This document shows, one piece after another, positions 3,583-23,034 of a stretch of 24,678 bases of DNA. The stretch comes from a virus. Each line of letters opens with the position of its first letter. Within the stretch, counting starts at the first letter, position 1. A program made the translations under genes and the position numbers. The stretch is taken from positions 1-24,678 of IMG/VR virus record IMGVR_UViG_3300032291_003076; one strand, given 5' to 3'. The notes below the pieces were generated by a model. The model worked only from the letters and a program-made list of their open reading frames with translations, had not been told where the DNA came from and searched no databases.

Positions 3583-5487
3583 TTAGGCGAACGCCGCTCC
3601 GCTTGGTTGTTGTTGCAGTATTTGTCGCAGAATGGCGACCGCCTTTTCTGTGGCAATCGCCGTGCGCTCGGAGACGGAAACCAACTCCCGCTCCGAGCTA
3701 GCGGCCACGCCGCCAATCGCCGGAGAAGGGTTCGAGACGCCGCGGGCCAGCGCGGTGGCGGATGGAACCGACCGACCACCGGTCGGTCGGCTCATGGCGA
3801 CGAGCTGCTCGACGCCGTCAGCCGTCCGTCCGGTTGCGTCCGCGATCTTGGCCTCATTACCTAGCTTGGGTCCGATGCCGAGCTGCCCGGCTATGCCGCC
3901 CGCGAACGTGCCGATCGTGTCGCCGCGGGCCGGCTTGTCGGCACCTGCTGCCATCGGTTGCTCGAGGGCCTGGCGGAACTCGTCGCGCTTGATGCCGCCT
4001 TTCTTGGCGGCGGCTTTCTGCTGGCCCTTAGTGCCCGACATCATGTACGCCACGCCGGCCCCTGCGGCTGCGCCTACTGCCAGCACGGCCGCAATCTGGC
4101 CGAATAGGGGCAGAGCCAAGAACGCCACTCGTAGGGCCGTCAGGGAGGCCGTGAGGCCAGCGGCCGCGCGAGACATAACGGCACTCACGGCCTGGAACGC
4201 CGGGCCGGCCTTAATGAAACCGCGGATTCCAAAGTTCACGGCAGTCAACGCCCACCCCACCGACACCATCGCCACGCCAAGGCCAACGGCCGAGGCCGTC
4301 AACGCCGCGAGGATTGGCGACAAGATAGGGATACCGCCAAGCAACCACGAAAGCAGGTCAATCACCATGGCGATGCCGTGAGAGGCGACCGCTAGGGCAG
4401 GGGACAGGCCAGTGCCGAAGGCAATCGACAGCCGCTCGATGGCGGACTGCATCCGCTCGAACGCCCCCGTAATCCCCTCCATCATGATCTTGAACTTCTC
4501 GGCTACCGTTCGCTGCGATTCCATTTCCTGCGCTAATCGCTCGAACCCTTCTACCCCCATGTCCGCGAACGCGCCGATGACCTTGATGCCGCGATCACCG
4601 AACACGTCCACGAGGGCCTTGTCGGCCATGATGGCCGAGCGGGCATCGACAGACATTCCCTTCATGGCGTCCGACAAGAGGCCGACAATCTGCACCATCG
4701 GCAATAGTTTGCCGTCTACATCGCGGAAGCTAGCGACCGATAGCCCCAGCCGCCCAAGGGCTTTCTCGGCCTCCTGCGAAGGGGCCACGAGCCGAGACAG
4801 GAGCACCTTGATTCCAGTGCCGGCTTCCTCACCCTGGATGCCGTAGCGGGCAAGGGCCGCGAACCCCTGCGCCACGCCGAACAGGGTTTGATCGAACGTC
4901 TTGCCGGCGGACCCCACGAGGCCGAACGCCTCGACCATGTGGGCAATGTCGGTTTCGCTGGCGTCGGCGGCCGCCGACAGCGTATCGACCGCCTCGCTCG
5001 CGCTTGTTCCGAACACGTTCATGCTGACCTTCATGAACGTAGCCGCCTGCTGGGCTTCCACGCCGGACACGCGGCCGAACTCGACGGCCGACTGAGCTGC
5101 CCCGGCCATGGCTTCCTCGACACTCATGCCGGCCTTTACGAGCAACGCAAACGACTGAGCAATTTTGGCGGGAGCCACGCCCATGGCCTTGCTCATGCGG
5201 ATCGACTCGTTGCGAACGGCCTCGAGCTGCTTGGGGGATATGTCGCTCACCGACCCCTTCAGCTCGAGCAGGGCGTTTTCAAACTCGGCCGCCTTCCTCG
5301 CGGCCAGCACCATCGGCAGGCCGAGGGCCGCCCCGCCGAGAGCCAGCGTCGTGCCGGTCTGCCGGAGCGTCTGCGACAGGGCCGCCATTCTGTTATGGAC
5401 ACGCTTTACCGCCGCCTGGAACTTCGTATCGTCTGCCGAAATTTCGACATACGCCTTGCCGGCTTTAATTGCGGATGCGGTGCTCAT
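3583..5487 (-). CDS. Phage tail tape measure protein (TP901 type)
   Basis: The protein has 634 residues. It starts at ATG 5487 in an ATGA overlap with the gpT-like frame. Residues 1-60 (AYVEISADDTKFQAAVKRV, then a helical heptad stretch) and the following region (AEFENALLELKGS, QSFALLVKAGMSVEEAM, AAATF-like repeats of about 40 residues) match the N-terminal core of TP901-family tape measures. Several long hydrophobic segments (about 365-420 and 455-485) are the usual membrane-active region. The protein sets tail length and takes part in DNA entry. By the usual rule of about 0.15 nm per residue, the tail would be near 95 nm. The chaperone frames lie directly upstream, as in lambda-like phages. 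Confidence 0.92.
   Translation of the reverse strand: MSTASAIKAGKAYVEISADDTKFQAAVKRVHNRMAALSQTLRQTGTTLALGGAALGLPMVLAARKAAEFENALLELKGSVSDISPKQLEAVRNESIRMSKAMGVAPAKIAQSFALLVKAGMSVEEAMAGAAQSAVEFGRVSGVEAQQAATFMKVSMNVFGTSASEAVDTLSAAADASETDIAHMVEAFGLVGSAGKTFDQTLFGVAQGFAALARYGIQGEEAGTGIKVLLSRLVAPSQEAEKALGRLGLSVASFRDVDGKLLPMVQIVGLLSDAMKGMSVDARSAIMADKALVDVFGDRGIKVIGAFADMGVEGFERLAQEMESQRTVAEKFKIMMEGITGAFERMQSAIERLSIAFGTGLSPALAVASHGIAMVIDLLSWLLGGIPILSPILAALTASAVGLGVAMVSVGWALTAVNFGIRGFIKAGPAFQAVSAVMSRAAAGLTASLTALRVAFLALPLFGQIAAVLAVGAAAGAGVAYMMSGTKGQQKAAAKKGGIKRDEFRQALEQPMAAGADKPARGDTIGTFAGGIAGQLGIGPKLGNEAKIADATGRTADGVEQLVAMSRPTGGRSVPSATALARGVSNPSPAIGGVAASSERELVSVSERTAIATEKAVAILRQILQQQPSGAAFA
3768..3790. 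repeat. 10-bp perfect inverted repeat inside the tape measure gene
   Basis: The arms CCGACCGACC (3768-3777) and GGTCGGTCGG (3781-3790) are perfect and separated by three bases. They encode the Arg-Pro-Thr-Gly-Gly-Arg-Ser stretch of the tape measure C-terminal region. No T-run follows on either strand. Confidence 0.6.
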
Positions 5488-15090: not shown

Positions 15091-17211
15091 CTACCGGCCC
15101 ATCCTCGCGAGCAGCTCGGCCCGCTTCGCCGCCATATCCTCTTTCGAAATACTCTTGCGCTCCCCGGCCGGTTTGGCCGCGGCCCCTACCGCCGAGATCC
15201 CGGTGTACGAGGCCGCCACCGCCGACCCCACGACACAGTCCCACAAATGATTGTCGCGGCCCGGGATCAGCTTCCACTCGTCCACGACCCGCATCTTGGA
15301 TTCGACGCGGACGGGAACCTCGCTCGCCATCTGCTCCGCGAGCATATCGTGACCCTGCCCGCCGTGGATCGTGAACGTCTGCACGTCACCGACCGGCAGC
15401 TTGCATCGTGACGCCACGAGCGTTTTCCATGCGTTCGTGTCGTAGAGGACGTGCCGCTGGCGTTGGATCGTGCTCGTCCGCCAGTTGGCCCCGACCCGCT
15501 CGCCCCGGTCGGGACTCTTGTCGCTGATGGTCGCGCCGCTGGCACCGACAAACCGGCCGTGCGTCGGCAGCACCCGCGGCCCCCACTTCGACCGGCGGGC
15601 AAAGTCCCTGACCACTCCCTGCGTCTGCGCCCAGTTGGCATCGACAAAGAGCTGGCCGACCCGGAGCACGGCGTCGTCGCTCTCCCGGGAGAACTCCCGA
15701 TCCAAGAGCATCGCGGCCACCGCCTCAAGGCCCGCGTGGATCCCGGCCTCCACACCCTCAACCCCGGCCGCCTTCGCAAGCGTTTTCTTGGCGTCCCGCA
15801 AAGAAAAGTACGCGCGGCCTTGGTCCGGGTAGGCTCCGTAGGCGACGAGATGCCCACGGAGCTGGTTGCCCCACGCCACCACGGCCCAGTAGAGCAGGGT
15901 TTGCTGAACGTCCACGAACGCGGTGAGTGTGTCGAGGCCCCGTGGCACGATCCACCTGGGCACTTCGATGACGCGGCGGCGCAGGTCGTCCGGCACGAGC
16001 CCCTGGCTGTTGGCCTCGTTCTTCAGCGGGCTCTGCTGGAACTCGCTCGCGAACACGTCCGCCCCGTCGTCAATGAGGGCGTTGTAGGCGTGTTGAATCG
16101 AACTGATTTCCGTATCGGGATCGAAGCAGCTCGCCCACGACACTTGGCACCCGGCGTCCATCGCGTTCCGGTTGTTGGCGTAGTAGGCGTTGGCTTCCTT
16201 GTGTGCTCTCGCCTGGTCGCCAACCAAATCTTTTGCGAACGAGCAACGCAGCTCGCGGTAGGTGTTCATCCACATTTCTTCATGGGCATCCGCGAACTTG
16301 CGGACCATCGGAATCCGCTCGCCTTGCCACGCGGGGTATTTCCCCTGGTCGAGCAACTGGTCAACCATGTCGTCGGTCTGGATGACCGTTGCGTTGACCA
16401 CGCAGGCCATTTGCTTGGTGTGCCCGGCCAGCTTGATGACACTCTTCAAGAGTATTTCGAGCCGGGCCTGGCACTGGACCGGCGACCGGGCCGACTCGCG
16501 GGTCTGCGGATCGTCCACGATGGTGAAGTCTGGCCGGAGCTGCTTGCCGTCCGGCGTTTTCCACCGGAGGCCAAGGATCGAGCCGGTGAGGCCGCGGCTG
16601 GTGAGGATCGACCCGGCCGACACACTGCCGTCGATCGCGGGGAACACGAGCGTGTCTTTCTTCCACCCGATATGCGTCCGCTTGCCGTTGTGCGTCTGGC
16701 TGTTGCATCGCTGCGGCTTTCCCTCAAGGGCGCGGATCGCATGGCAGACTTCGGGGAAATCCTCGTAGAGCAGGTCGTTGTCGGATAGCTCGGTGCGGAT
16801 CGAGTTAATGGCCTTGGCGGCTAGATCCGCCTCGGCCGCGAATATCGCCCCGAACTTCCGATGCCCGTAGAGCACCGCCCACAGCAGGGCGTTTTCCGAA
16901 ATGGTCGATTTGGCGAATCCTCTGTAGACCGCGTTCGTGAACCGGCCGCCCCGGAGGATGCAGTCTTGAATCCGGCCGATAACCCGCTTGTGGTCGTCCG
17001 AGAACGGCGACAGGCCGGTGGAGAAGGGGAAGTAGGTCGTGAGGAACAGCTCGAGGTTAGAGCGGCAGCTCTCCCGCCGGTCGGGGTTGGCGACCTTGGG
17101 TATCTCGCCAATGTCCGAACCCTTGCGGGTCCGCTCCCGCGACCGCTCAATGTCGGCCAGCCGTTTCGATTCTGAGGCCCCTAGCGGGTCCGTAGAGGGC
17201 TTACGGGGCAT
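15091..17211 (-). CDS. Terminase large subunit
   Basis: The protein has 706 residues. ATG 17211 was chosen because GGAGG lies seven bases upstream. The packaging ATPase is at about 60-260, with a Walker A-like RGFAKST (97-103) and a Walker B-like FTIVDD (228-234). The nuclease domain follows at about 425-670 with acidic residues in the three expected places: Asp 434 (TAFVDVQQ), Asp 524 (LFVDANW) and Asp 658 in NHLWDCVVGSA. It pumps DNA into the prohead and cuts the concatemer. The length fits large gpA-like terminases. No small subunit gene was recognised upstream; a RuvC-like gene overlaps its start by 11 bases. Confidence 0.88.
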   Translation of the reverse strand: MPRKPSTDPLGASESKRLADIERSRERTRKGSDIGEIPKVANPDRRESCRSNLELFLTTYFPFSTGLSPFSDDHKRVIGRIQDCILRGGRFTNAVYRGFAKSTISENALLWAVLYGHRKFGAIFAAEADLAAKAINSIRTELSDNDLLYEDFPEVCHAIRALEGKPQRCNSQTHNGKRTHIGWKKDTLVFPAIDGSVSAGSILTSRGLTGSILGLRWKTPDGKQLRPDFTIVDDPQTRESARSPVQCQARLEILLKSVIKLAGHTKQMACVVNATVIQTDDMVDQLLDQGKYPAWQGERIPMVRKFADAHEEMWMNTYRELRCSFAKDLVGDQARAHKEANAYYANNRNAMDAGCQVSWASCFDPDTEISSIQHAYNALIDDGADVFASEFQQSPLKNEANSQGLVPDDLRRRVIEVPRWIVPRGLDTLTAFVDVQQTLLYWAVVAWGNQLRGHLVAYGAYPDQGRAYFSLRDAKKTLAKAAGVEGVEAGIHAGLEAVAAMLLDREFSRESDDAVLRVGQLFVDANWAQTQGVVRDFARRSKWGPRVLPTHGRFVGASGATISDKSPDRGERVGANWRTSTIQRQRHVLYDTNAWKTLVASRCKLPVGDVQTFTIHGGQGHDMLAEQMASEVPVRVESKMRVVDEWKLIPGRDNHLWDCVVGSAVAASYTGISAVGAAAKPAGERKSISKEDMAAKRAELLARMGR
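15143..15154 (-). repeat. Dispersed motif (GAGTATTTCGA), copy 4
   Basis: In the terminase 3' end it is read as Ser-Ile-Ser-Lys. The last base differs (GAGTATTTCGAA). Confidence 0.55.
16450..16460 (+). repeat. Dispersed motif GAGTATTTCGA, copy 5
   Basis: Inside the terminase gene it encodes Leu-Glu-Ile-Leu on the opposite strand, again using ATA. Confidence 0.55.
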
Positions 17212-17671
17212 TGGGGGCCTCCACACCCGTACAGTAGTCCGCAACGGCCAGAGCGGCCCATACATGCGACCGGACGCCGTACAGCGGGCCGGGCCTGCCC
17301 TTGGTGCCGACCGGGCCGTACTTGTCGAGCAACGCCTGGCGGATGTTGGCGTCCTTGGCCCGGGGGCTCCCGCAGAGGTGCAGTTTCACGTCCTTGCGGT
17401 ACACCAGCCGGTGAGGGCCGCGGTGCGCCTGCAGGAAGCGGCCGATCCACACGCACGTCTCGAACACTTCCCGGCCGACCGCCATGCCGTAGCTGGCGAT
17501 CATCTCGCAGGCGAGGTAGTTGCTGTTGATTTGGCACGAGGGCAGTTGGCCGCACTCGAGTATTTCGATAAGCCTGGGATTGGGCACAATCTCGGAGTCG
17601 AGCACCCGCTTGCCGTCCCACAGGACGTAGGCGGATTGAGTCGTGCCGGGGTCGAGGGCGAGGATTCTCAT
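17201..17671 (-). CDS. RuvC-like (RNase H fold) Holliday junction resolvase-type nuclease
   Basis: The protein has 156 residues from ATG 17671, in an ATGA overlap with the replication gene. The RuvC pattern is clear: MRILALDPGTTQSAYVLWDG with Asp 7, then an acidic residue in the second strand region (ACEMIASYG, Glu 56), then a C-terminal helix with His 136 and Asp 145 (SHVWAALAVADY). These supply the metal-binding residues of the RNase H-like fold. Length is near that of RuvC. In phages such enzymes resolve branched DNA before packaging, and the overlap with the terminase gene fits this. Confidence 0.82.
   Translation of the reverse strand: MRILALDPGTTQSAYVLWDGKRVLDSEIVPNPRLIEILECGQLPSCQINSNYLACEMIASYGMAVGREVFETCVWIGRFLQAHRGPHRLVYRKDVKLHLCGSPRAKDANIRQALLDKYGPVGTKGRPGPLYGVRSHVWAALAVADYCTGVEAPNAP
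17558..17569 (+). repeat. Dispersed motif GAGTATTTCGAT, copy 6
   Basis: In the RuvC-like gene (minus sense) it encodes Ile-Glu-Ile-Leu at residues 35-38, with the same four codons as copy 1 in an unrelated gene. Confidence 0.6.
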
Positions 17672-18498
17672 GCGACCGCCTCCCTCTGCTTCGCCTTCAA
17701 CTCCGCGAGCATCCGCTTGCGGGCTTCCTCGTCGGCCCCGGTCCACTCCCGGGGAGGCGGCTTGTCGTCCGGCCGGGGCGGGCCGGCGGCCCGCTTGGCG
17801 GCCTTGGGGCCGTCGTACTGGCCGCCGAGCAGACGCTCGACAAACCCCGGCTTGACGAACTGGATCAGCGTCACGGGGCTATCGAAATACTTCGCCCCAC
17901 GGAGACGGCCGAGCGCGGCGGGAACCTGCTCCCACCATCCAGGTTCCGCTAGGCGGTCCTCGGAACCGTCCGGCAGCTTGTGCGGCGACCACTTGGCACC
18001 CGGCCCCTTGTTCCATGCCTCCCGAAGTTCTGCGCAGCTCGCGCGGGGAGGAGGAGGAATTTCTTCTCTCCTAGTTCTTATCTCCTCTAGTGCGCTTTCG
18101 CGCACGGGGCCGTGCGCAGGAGCGCACGCACCCGTGCGCTGTTGCGCACCGTCACGGCTTGCGGCGGCCCGATCTGCATGATTGGCCCGTGTTTTGGCAC
18201 TTTTCGAGAATCTGCGCTCCCAGCCGGGGATTTCTACAGATTGCCCATCCTCCCCAAACGATAGCCAGCCGACAGATTCGACGGCCTGCCAGAAATCGGG
18301 GGTGCCGCCGAACATTCGACAGAGCCGCGGCATTGTCATGCGGGCGGTGCCGCCGTCCGCGTTGAGTCCGGCCCACGTCCAGAATCCGACGATCCGGCCG
18401 ACGATGAGGTAGCGATCCTCGCCGGTCAGGTCGATTAGTTCCTCGACCTCCGGCTTGCTCGCTAGGTTGCAGTCAATTTGAATCCACTCTCCGGCCAT
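17668..18498 (-). CDS. Putative phage replication initiator / replisome organiser
   Basis: The protein has 276 residues. ATG 18498 was chosen over the upstream frame because GGGAGGG lies eight bases away. The N-terminal 100 residues (GEWIQIDCNLASKPEVEELIDLTGEDRYLIVGRIVGFWTWA, then a beta-wing-like end SVEIPGWERRF) resemble winged-helix N domains of phage replication proteins. Residues about 108-155 form a low-complexity linker, and within its DNA lie three palindromic iterons. The C-terminal part (LREAWNKGPGAKW, WWEQVPAALGRL) is helical and ends in a basic Lys/Arg-rich tail. Such proteins bind the origin and recruit the host helicase. The iterons in its own gene, as in lambda O, support the call. 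Confidence 0.75.
   Translation of the reverse strand: MAGEWIQIDCNLASKPEVEELIDLTGEDRYLIVGRIVGFWTWAGLNADGGTARMTMPRLCRMFGGTPDFWQAVESVGWLSFGEDGQSVEIPGWERRFSKSAKTRANHADRAAASRDGAQQRTGACAPAHGPVRESALEEIRTRREEIPPPPRASCAELREAWNKGPGAKWSPHKLPDGSEDRLAEPGWWEQVPAALGRLRGAKYFDSPVTLIQFVKPGFVERLLGGQYDGPKAAKRAAGPPRPDDKPPPREWTGADEEARKRMLAELKAKQREAVA
17881..17892 (-). repeat. Dispersed motif (AAGTATTTCGAT), copy 7
   Basis: It encodes Lys-Tyr-Phe-Asp in the replication gene, a third reading register for the motif. The first base differs from the consensus. Confidence 0.5.
18058..18089 (-). other. A+T-rich, purine/pyrimidine-biased tract beside the iterons (probable unwinding element)
   Basis: Twenty-one of these 32 bases are A or T in a G+C-rich surrounding. 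The plus strand is almost all pyrimidine apart from a few A and one G. It directly adjoins the first iteron, the relation seen between lambda iterons and their unwinding region. Confidence 0.55.
18090..18149. repeat. Three palindromic iterons, GTGCGC-N4-GCGCAC, 22-bp period (probable replication origin)
   Basis: Units lie at 18090-18105, 18112-18127 and 18134-18149. Each is a perfect 6-bp inverted repeat around four variable bases (TTTC, AGGA, TGTT), and spacers are six bases. The 22-bp step puts all units on one helix face. They lie in the linker region of the initiator-like gene. Confidence 0.82.
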
Positions 18499-18574
18499 TC
18501 CTTGGCCCTCCCTTCTGGATTCCGCCCCGCCGCGTCGAAGCGGCACCGTGCCTATCACGAGGGGCGGCTTGTGT

Positions 18575-21318: not shown

Positions 21319-21533
21319 AGCAATCCTTCCTTTTTGAGAATGGCCGCCGCCTTATCCAGTGCCGCATCAAGGCACAGAGTGTCGGCGGGTTCCTGTTGGT
21401 AAATCCGTTGACCGACCCGCGATGCCCCCGCCCGCAACACTCGTGCGGCGCGGAACACTCGCAACAAATGAACCACCACGTCAGCCTGGCGGGCTTCTCT
21501 CGCCACCACTCTTGCAGCCGTGTTCACGCTCAT
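21315..21533 (-). CDS. Hypothetical small basic protein overlapping csrA
   Basis: The protein has 72 residues from ATG 21533, with GGAGGG upstream. It overlaps the csrA 3' end by 53 bases in another frame and couples to the ATPase gene by ATGA. It is helical and Arg/Ala-rich at first (NTAARVVAREARQADVVVHLLRVFRAARVLRAG), with a Leu/Ala helix at the end (LDAALDKAAAILKKEG). No family was recognised. The good ribosome site supports translation despite the overlap. Confidence 0.6.
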   Translation of the reverse strand: MSVNTAARVVAREARQADVVVHLLRVFRAARVLRAGASRVGQRIYQQEPADTLCLDAALDKAAAILKKEGLL

Positions 21534-21714
21534 AAAATCCCTCCGTGAGAACTCGCGGCGCATTGCTTTTGCAATCGTCGCGAACGATGACCACATCCCC
21601 GGGCGCGGTGAATCCGAGCTTCACCTGGTCGGGGCGAATCGAAACCACTTCGATTTCAATGCCGTACTTGGGGACAAAAATCTTCTGCCCCACCTTCCGG
21701 CCAAGAACCAACAC
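21481..21714 (-). CDS. csrA: CsrA/RsmA-type translational regulator
   Basis: The protein has 77 residues from GTG 21714, with AAGGAGG five bases upstream. The CsrA pattern is present from the first residue: MLVLGRKVGQKIFV, then IEIEVVSIRPDQVKLGFTAPGDVVIVRDD. Both RNA-contact arginines of the family are in place (Arg 6 and Arg 45, equivalent to Arg 44 of the E. coli protein). CsrA dimers bind GGA motifs in mRNA leaders, often over ribosome sites, and block or stabilise the message. The C-terminal 30 residues are a variable extension. As an early gene it may control host or phage mRNAs after infection. Confidence 0.88.
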   Translation of the reverse strand: MLVLGRKVGQKIFVPKYGIEIEVVSIRPDQVKLGFTAPGDVVIVRDDCKSNAPRVLTEGFYEREHGCKSGGERSPPG

Positions 21715-22566: not shown

Positions 22567-23034
22567 ATGCCCACCGCCCCGACCGACGTTGTTGATGCTC
22601 TGCAAGCAAGTTGCCGCCTGCACTTGACCGCGGTTGAGCATTACACGAGCTTGGCCGCCCACCTTGAGCGATGGGGCTACAGCTTGGGGGACCGCTACCG
22701 CGTGGACGCAGACGAGGAAGCCGAGCACCTGCAGCGGGTCATGGGCCGGCTGGAATACTTCGACGTGGCCCCGTCACTGGACCACAAACTGCCAACGTGG
22801 CCGCGGCACGACTACGCTGGCATCTTGAACGCGAACCTTTTGCTCGAGACGGCGGCCGCGGCCGTCGAGCGGGCGAATATCGCGGTCTGCCGCGAGGCCG
22901 GCGACGAACAAAGTGCGCTCGTGTTCGTTGAACTGCTGGCCGGCAGCGAGGCGTCGATCAGTCGTATTGAGGCGACTCAGAAGGTTATCGAGGAAATCGG
23001 CCTCGACAACTACCTCGCGACGTTTGCCGACTAG
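22567..23034 (+). CDS. Bacterioferritin-like protein with an incomplete di-iron site
   Basis: The protein has 155 residues from ATG 22567, with AAGGAG six bases upstream. It aligns along its length with bacterioferritin: HLTAVEHYTSLAAHLERWG, then DEEAEHLQRVMGRL, LLLETAAAAVERANIAVC, and the family ending EEIGLDNYL. By comparison with E. coli Bfr, Glu 51, His 54 and Glu 94 are kept, but Glu 127 and His 130 are both Ser here. Glu 18 is replaced by His 19, and the haem Met 52 is Ala. Ferroxidase activity of the usual kind is therefore doubtful. The four-helix fold may still form a cage or serve another role. It is the only plus-strand gene besides the integrase and looks like a moron or lysogeny gene. 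Confidence 0.8.
   Translation: MPTAPTDVVDALQASCRLHLTAVEHYTSLAAHLERWGYSLGDRYRVDADEEAEHLQRVMGRLEYFDVAPSLDHKLPTWPRHDYAGILNANLLLETAAAAVERANIAVCREAGDEQSALVFVELLAGSEASISRIEATQKVIEEIGLDNYLATFAD

Follow-up and report, generated by a model that had tools for sequence, protein, structure and literature searches.

A putative replication origin inside a phage initiator gene, with palindromic iterons that co-vary with an initiator helix

The window, as we call the whole 24.7-kb virus record analysed here, carries terminase, portal, capsid, tail tape-measure and integrase genes, and it very probably has its replication origin inside its own initiator gene, in an arrangement like that of lambda ori, which lies in gene O. 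Computation revealed an array of palindromes in this gene, conservation of the array at the DNA level in a large family, an adjoining tract, co-variation between one initiator helix and the palindrome half-sites, and natural swaps of a cassette holding both. On balance, we also favor the view that this large family uses a single basic helix as a modular, nearly readable code for the palindromic iterons just downstream in the same gene. A helix and iteron cassette of ~120 bp would be exchanged, or would mutate in matched steps, the smallest involving a single residue and a single base in each half-site. Origin specificity would shift as a result, possibly allowing escape from origin competition or origin-targeting defences.

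The palindrome array and adjoining tract in the window

Table 1. Features of the initiator region in the window
Feature	Position	Strand	Description
Replication initiator gene	17668..18558	-	Longest ORF, 296 aa; PHROG matches
Winged-helix domain	18208..18453	-	Residues 36-117 of the 296-aa ORF; AlphaFold2 pLDDT about 87-97
Basic helix region, proposed recognition helix	18145..18210	-	Residues 117-138, RFSKSAKTRANHADRAAASRDGA; pLDDT about 55-75
Iteron 1	18134..18149		GTGCGC-TGTT-GCGCAC (+ strand); exact match
Iteron 2	18112..18127		GTGCGC-AGGA-GCGCAC; exact match
Iteron 3	18090..18105		GTGCGC-TTTC-GCGCAC; exact match; abuts the purine tract
Purine tract on coding strand, proposed unwinding element	18058..18089	-	TAGAGGAGATAAGAACTAGGAGAGAAGAAATT
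Pyrimidine run after the tract	18043..18057	-	CCTCCTCCTCC; can pair with the tract in single-stranded DNA
C-terminal domain, proposed replisome-recruiting part	17827..18042	-	Residues 173-244; pLDDT about 79-91
Terminase large subunit gene	15091-17265	Same as initiator	Just downstream of the initiator gene

A preliminary description of the window had remarked that the N terminus encoded by this gene resembles a replication initiator. Profile searches bear this out: the ORF, whose likely start codon (ATG at 18498) would give a product of 276 aa, matched PHROG 2509 (E=1.2e-21, over residues 21-168 in the N-terminal region) and PHROG 9474 (E=6.4e-16), both annotated as 'replication initiation protein'. 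A Pfam search with the same protein gave no match at E<=1. The basic helix following the winged-helix domain is present in both AlphaFold2 models, at residues 119-138 of 296, with moderate confidence, and its residues co-vary with the iteron half-site among relatives (see below).

In structural searches with Foldseek and VIA, the winged-helix domain matched other winged-helix proteins, some of them N domains of plasmid initiators (Z about 6.6), which is not decisive. VIA-align returned common winged-helix matches only, plasmid initiators among them, and the best E-value of Foldseek against the PDB was 0.11. Matches in BFVD included proteins annotated as replisome organizer, replication initiator and primosomal protein (best E from 2e-9 to 8e-4, with low TM-scores). 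Among the top structural matches were the Rep/initiator N-domain structures 5kbj and 4pql, which we take to be RepA_N proteins. Since their Z-scores (6.6-6.8) are tied with those of CRP-type winged helices, homology to RepA_N is not established by this match, and no Pfam profile match to RepA_N (PF06970) was found in the window initiator or in the relatives tested. No helicase or loader gene was recognised among the searched genes of the window. Elsewhere in the record, the early gene region encodes a CsrA-like regulator (21481-21714, minus strand; Pfam CsrA E=4.6e-14, PHROG 9500), and a 155-aa ferritin-like protein is encoded near the integrase gene (22567-23034, plus strand; Pfam Ferritin E=1.3e-8, no PHROG match).

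The three perfect copies of GTGCGC-N4-GCGCAC that the preliminary description had placed inside the gene at a 22-bp step are present exactly so (Table 1), and a scan of the window allowing up to two mismatches found no further copy. In dinucleotide shuffles, matches at up to two mismatches averaged 5.4. A single mismatched palindrome is therefore unremarkable in such GC-rich DNA, and the significance of the array lies in its three perfect, evenly spaced copies. When the linker was synonymously recoded 20,000 times, three copies of one perfect palindrome arose in none of the recodings and two copies in 59. We considered chance palindromes in GC-rich DNA as the source of the array and rejected them. 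A protein-coding repeat, already doubted in the preliminary description, is likewise ruled out: the encoded residues do not repeat, and a step of 22 bp, which is not divisible by 3, places each of the three palindromes in a different reading frame, so that no protein repeat accounts for them. The array thus shows the features of an iteron origin, namely repeats at helical-phase spacing (three copies in the window) with one half-site and a variable centre.

Directly after the array, the coding strand reads TAGAGGAGATAAGAACTAGGAGAGAAGAAATTCCTCCTCCTCC, purines and then pyrimidines. The purine tract had been described as A+T-rich and strand-biased. The strand bias is confirmed, with 81% pyrimidine on the plus strand, whereas the A+T content is only moderate, at 66% against about 38% for the window. 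A change of GC skew at the array, suggested as a check in the same description, was not seen, as the 24.7-kb fragment has no extremum or turning point there. As single-stranded DNA, the region comprising array and tract (18040-18150) folds far better than shuffled sequences, with z about -6.6 for one strand and about -6.2 for the other. Such a fold is expected from the palindromes, although array and tract might conceivably act as single strands.

Conservation of the layout among relatives

Scanning IMG/VR by DNA alone, with two GTGCGC-type palindromes 22 bp apart required, returned 44 contigs, some of them near-copies of each other, so that they do not amount to 44 independent lineages. In 44/44 of them, the gene that contains the array is homologous to the window initiator, as identified with phmmer. 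Half-sites are constant throughout this set, the N4 centres vary and the tract follows the array. Copy number in relatives is 2-4 and the steps are mostly 22 or 23 bp. Homologues lacking GTGCGC nearly all bear other palindromic iterons at the same position, with the same kind of tract after them. Their half-sites include CTGCGC, CGGCGC, CGACGC, CGATGC, CCGCGC, GGGCGC, ACGCGC and TTGCGC, and layouts vary too (CCGCGC with N4 and a step of 23; GTGCGC-N5; GGGCGC-N3; ACGCGC-N3; TTGCGC-N5). Homologues that keep the linker and lose the palindromes, which the preliminary description had named as the pattern contrary to an origin, are thus not what the family presents. Scans of GTDB genomes found no match to the palindrome pattern and no relative of the window subfamily. 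Locus L009 has an odd array at 4348-4420, with GTGCGC..GCGCAG..GCGCAC units at 34 bp and not 22.

A tract of the AGAGGAGA or AGAGAAGAGAAG type follows the array in nearly all homologues. It is translated in a different phase from gene to gene, giving EEIRTRREEIPPPP in the window, RGDRGDRGEVPPPP in L058 and GEDINSSSS in L109, which argues for selection on the DNA and not on the protein. In a small number of relatives the array or the tract is not clear, and in L312 the automatic test detected neither of them.

The same layout extends to cultured relatives. Iterons of the GTAACGC type occur in Escherichia phage ZX5, phage CBW1004C-Prop1 and ctnlZ23, those of the GTCCGC type in Salmonella phage 66FD and Cobetia phage Carin1, and GTCACA..TGTGAC in Vibrio phage 1.211.A. 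By automatic count, the 149 distinct linkers of the cultured-type clades comprise 68 of GTAACG type, 78 of GTCCGC type and 3 of neither; 134 pass a strict test for the purine tract, which 13/68 GTAACG-type genes fail. To judge from these comparisons, hundreds of related phages have the same layout. In two cultured-type relatives (L215 and L218) the gene after the initiator encodes a helicase loader, P-like (PHROG 109) or DnaC-like (PHROG 50), and none was recognised among the tested genes of L026 and L035. Four genes of cultured relatives have an extra copy of their iteron palindrome far upstream, in the winged-helix coding part (nt 148 of the gene in L215, L216 and L219; nt 65 in L217), which could be a distal binding site.

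Plasmid iteron initiators often serve both replication and autoregulation, and a winged-helix protein on tandem palindromes would be equally in keeping with an operator, through which the initiator or another regulator would control transcription of the replication genes, replication starting elsewhere. However, some 350-400 bp of coding region separate the array from the start of the gene, a long way from the usual place of promoter and operator, and the purine tract that consistently follows it has no obvious use in an operator; we regard this explanation as improbable. The array might also be a DNA-packaging (cos/pac) or recombination site, given that the terminase large subunit gene lies close downstream on the same strand. 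This we consider highly improbable and have rejected, because the half-site tracks the initiator helix and not the terminase; moreover, the neighbours of the arrays in cultured relatives are genes for a repressor, methylase, resolvase or helicase loader, and the flanks that were retrieved carry no terminase annotation.

Known systems and a proposed origin mechanism

Origins within genes are already known, as is the exchange of an initiator DNA-binding domain together with its origin (lambda O types; pSK41/pPR9 Rep, PMC5703833; PLE RepA, PMC8263062). Lambda O is a dimer whose binding sites, the iterons, lie midway along its own gene, and it opens an adjoining AT-rich tract (PMC7466680, PMC6022878). 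Lambda ori and gene O, like the O proteins of Stx phages, share with the window iterons placed mid-gene in the initiator beside an AT-rich tract that is needed for unwinding, and lambda O shares an N-terminal DNA-binding domain, a linker and a C-terminal partner-binding domain (PMC7466680, PMC6022878). The likeness to lambda ori with unrelated iterons drawn in the preliminary description is therefore apt for the in-gene iterons and the strand-biased, A+T-richer tract, and right in calling the iterons unrelated. In contrast to lambda, the window family has perfect palindromes rich in GC as iterons and a purine/pyrimidine tract of moderate A+T content, and many iteron types occur within one initiator family; the Pfam profile Phage_rep_O found no match in the window protein at E<=1, nor in 18 relatives at E<=5.

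Two further systems bear comparison. The RepA_N-type Rep of the staphylococcal plasmid pSK41 has four Rep boxes, central in the rep gene and bound by the N-terminal winged-helix domain; the ori encodes the linker, the C-terminal domain is thought to be host-specific, and the chimeric pPR9 Rep differs from pSK41 by a swap of N domain and ori of about 500 bp (PMC5703833). Here, in contrast, the gene belongs to a phage and not a plasmid, and specificity appears to sit in the helix after the wing. In the RepA_N replicons of PLEs, satellites in Vibrio cholerae, the iterons are semi-palindromic, and the DNA-binding domain of RepA co-varies with the origin, the two being exchanged together as one module, a diversification that an origin-targeting nuclease may drive (PMC8263062). 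The PLE origin lies in a noncoding region, whereas the array studied here is intragenic, and a unit of about 120 bp can suffice for the exchange. The PHROG 2509/9474 initiators of Uetakevirus and similar phages are the same protein family by profile, and their cultured members have the same in-gene layout; they differ in their iterons (GTAACGC, GTCCGC, GTCACA) and in having other C-terminal domains.

By analogy with lambda O and pSK41 Rep, we infer DNA binding, dimer stoichiometry, unwinding, helicase recruitment and origin activity for the window initiator. The winged-helix domain and the following basic helix would bind the palindromic iterons, probably as one initiator dimer per 16-bp palindrome. 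As a 22-bp step is about two helical turns, successive dimers would lie on one face of the DNA. The assembled complex may then open the adjoining purine tract, and the C-terminal domain would recruit the replisome, bringing in host or phage helicase machinery. Sequence specificity would come mainly from the basic helix. Its coding sequence lies no more than about 100 bp from the iterons, so that the two could behave as one exchangeable or co-evolving cassette, and exchange or co-evolution of this cassette might give closely related phages different origin specificities. The gene thus looks like a self-contained start site, with recognition rules partly readable from its sequence.

Co-variation of helix and half-sites

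The comparison of relatives indicates that the iteron sequence switches with the basic helix C-terminal to the winged-helix domain, a relation missed by the preliminary description. Helix positions are numbered from p1, the first residue after an invariant AK-x-R; for a few genes (L005, L008, L009 and degenerate third copies) the automatic caller mis-registered the half-sites, which we then assigned manually. In the Q-type subfamily (52 sequences), the more two helices differ, the more their half-sites differ (r=0.54; partial r=0.56; 0/1000 permutations), and half-site distance shows no such correlation with winged-helix distance (r=-0.003). The association of glutamine at p10 with T at site position 2 holds in 52/52 tips, and 8/8 inferred changes fall on the same branches. 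The 90-residue tree is weakly resolved. The branch P values are descriptive only, since they weight all branches alike and the rules were picked post hoc. The columns with the best mutual information are p10, p3, p18, p7, p11 and p4, mostly helix positions; p18 lies in the linker.

Similar associations hold in other subfamilies. In the L/M/N-type subfamily, A, H and N at p7 correspond to GTGCGC, GGGCGC and ACGCGC in 29/29, 28/28 and 4/4 sequences, and in the cultured-type clades T at p3 accompanies GTAACG (68/68), and D or E at p3 accompanies GTCCGC (77/78), rules that were derived from the same data on which they were tested. With identical helices excluded, a nearest-neighbour prediction of the half-site was right in 85% of cases from six helix-face residues, 77% from the whole helix and 54% from the winged helix; exclusion of winged-helix neighbours of at least 90% identity gave 79% vs 42%, against 17% by chance. 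We also fixed out-of-sample predictions before fetching the loci. The prediction for L298 agreed. That for L538 failed until p7 was used; the rule that 'LH means GTGCGC' failed on this gene, which implies that p7 matters in that subfamily. The rule that p3 alone sets site position 3 was dropped, since L209 and L207 (p3=Q) keep G and L005 (p3=N) keeps GTGCGC; in the window's own subfamily, to which the last case applies, p3 is not decisive. The half-site rule appears to need p3 together with p8, p7 and p10.

Natural swaps also occur. L006 and L007 are 97% identical in DNA upstream and downstream, and the main difference between them is a block of ~120 bp, in which the later half of the helix and every iteron are encoded, with CTGCGC in one gene and CGACGG/C in the other. 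L213 provides a second case when compared with L208, L201 and L209. In L107 and L089 the helix is identical except for H/Q at p3, and the half-sites are CGGCGC and CGACGC.

Since such swaps carry helix and iterons together, and the mutual information of linker position p18 (0.40) is close to that of p3 and p7, the co-variation might arise from block linkage and recombination alone, the helix playing no part in recognition. We think this unlikely, while accepting that part of the co-variation, as the sequences present it, reflects physical linkage. Position p10 has the top mutual information even though p18 is closer to the iterons; p3, p7, p10 and p11, the informative residues, share one helix face; a matched single change exists in L107 and L089 (p3 H to Q, CGGCGC to CGACGC); and more than one winged-helix background shows the same residue-base associations. 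These observations argue for a helix that contributes to recognition of the half-site.

In the open-access literature we found no account of iterons in PHROG 2509/9474-type initiators, nor of a residue-level correspondence between one helix and iteron sequence. Which residues of a lambda-O-like initiator set origin specificity, and how initiator and sites change jointly without a dead intermediate, are hard questions to approach with a few classical phages. The family assembled here offers well over a hundred distinct natural pairs of initiator and putative origin, with about a dozen iteron types, and its near-isogenic swaps and matched single-residue, single-base pair make the specificity question testable with short synthetic DNA. 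Array and tract together may also serve as a sequence signature for locating phage origins in metagenomes.

A chimeric gene was also observed in L008 (4001-4888). Both of its ends are near identical to the window gene (17668-18558), and between these shared ends its N domain, helix, iterons and C domain are different from those of the window gene.
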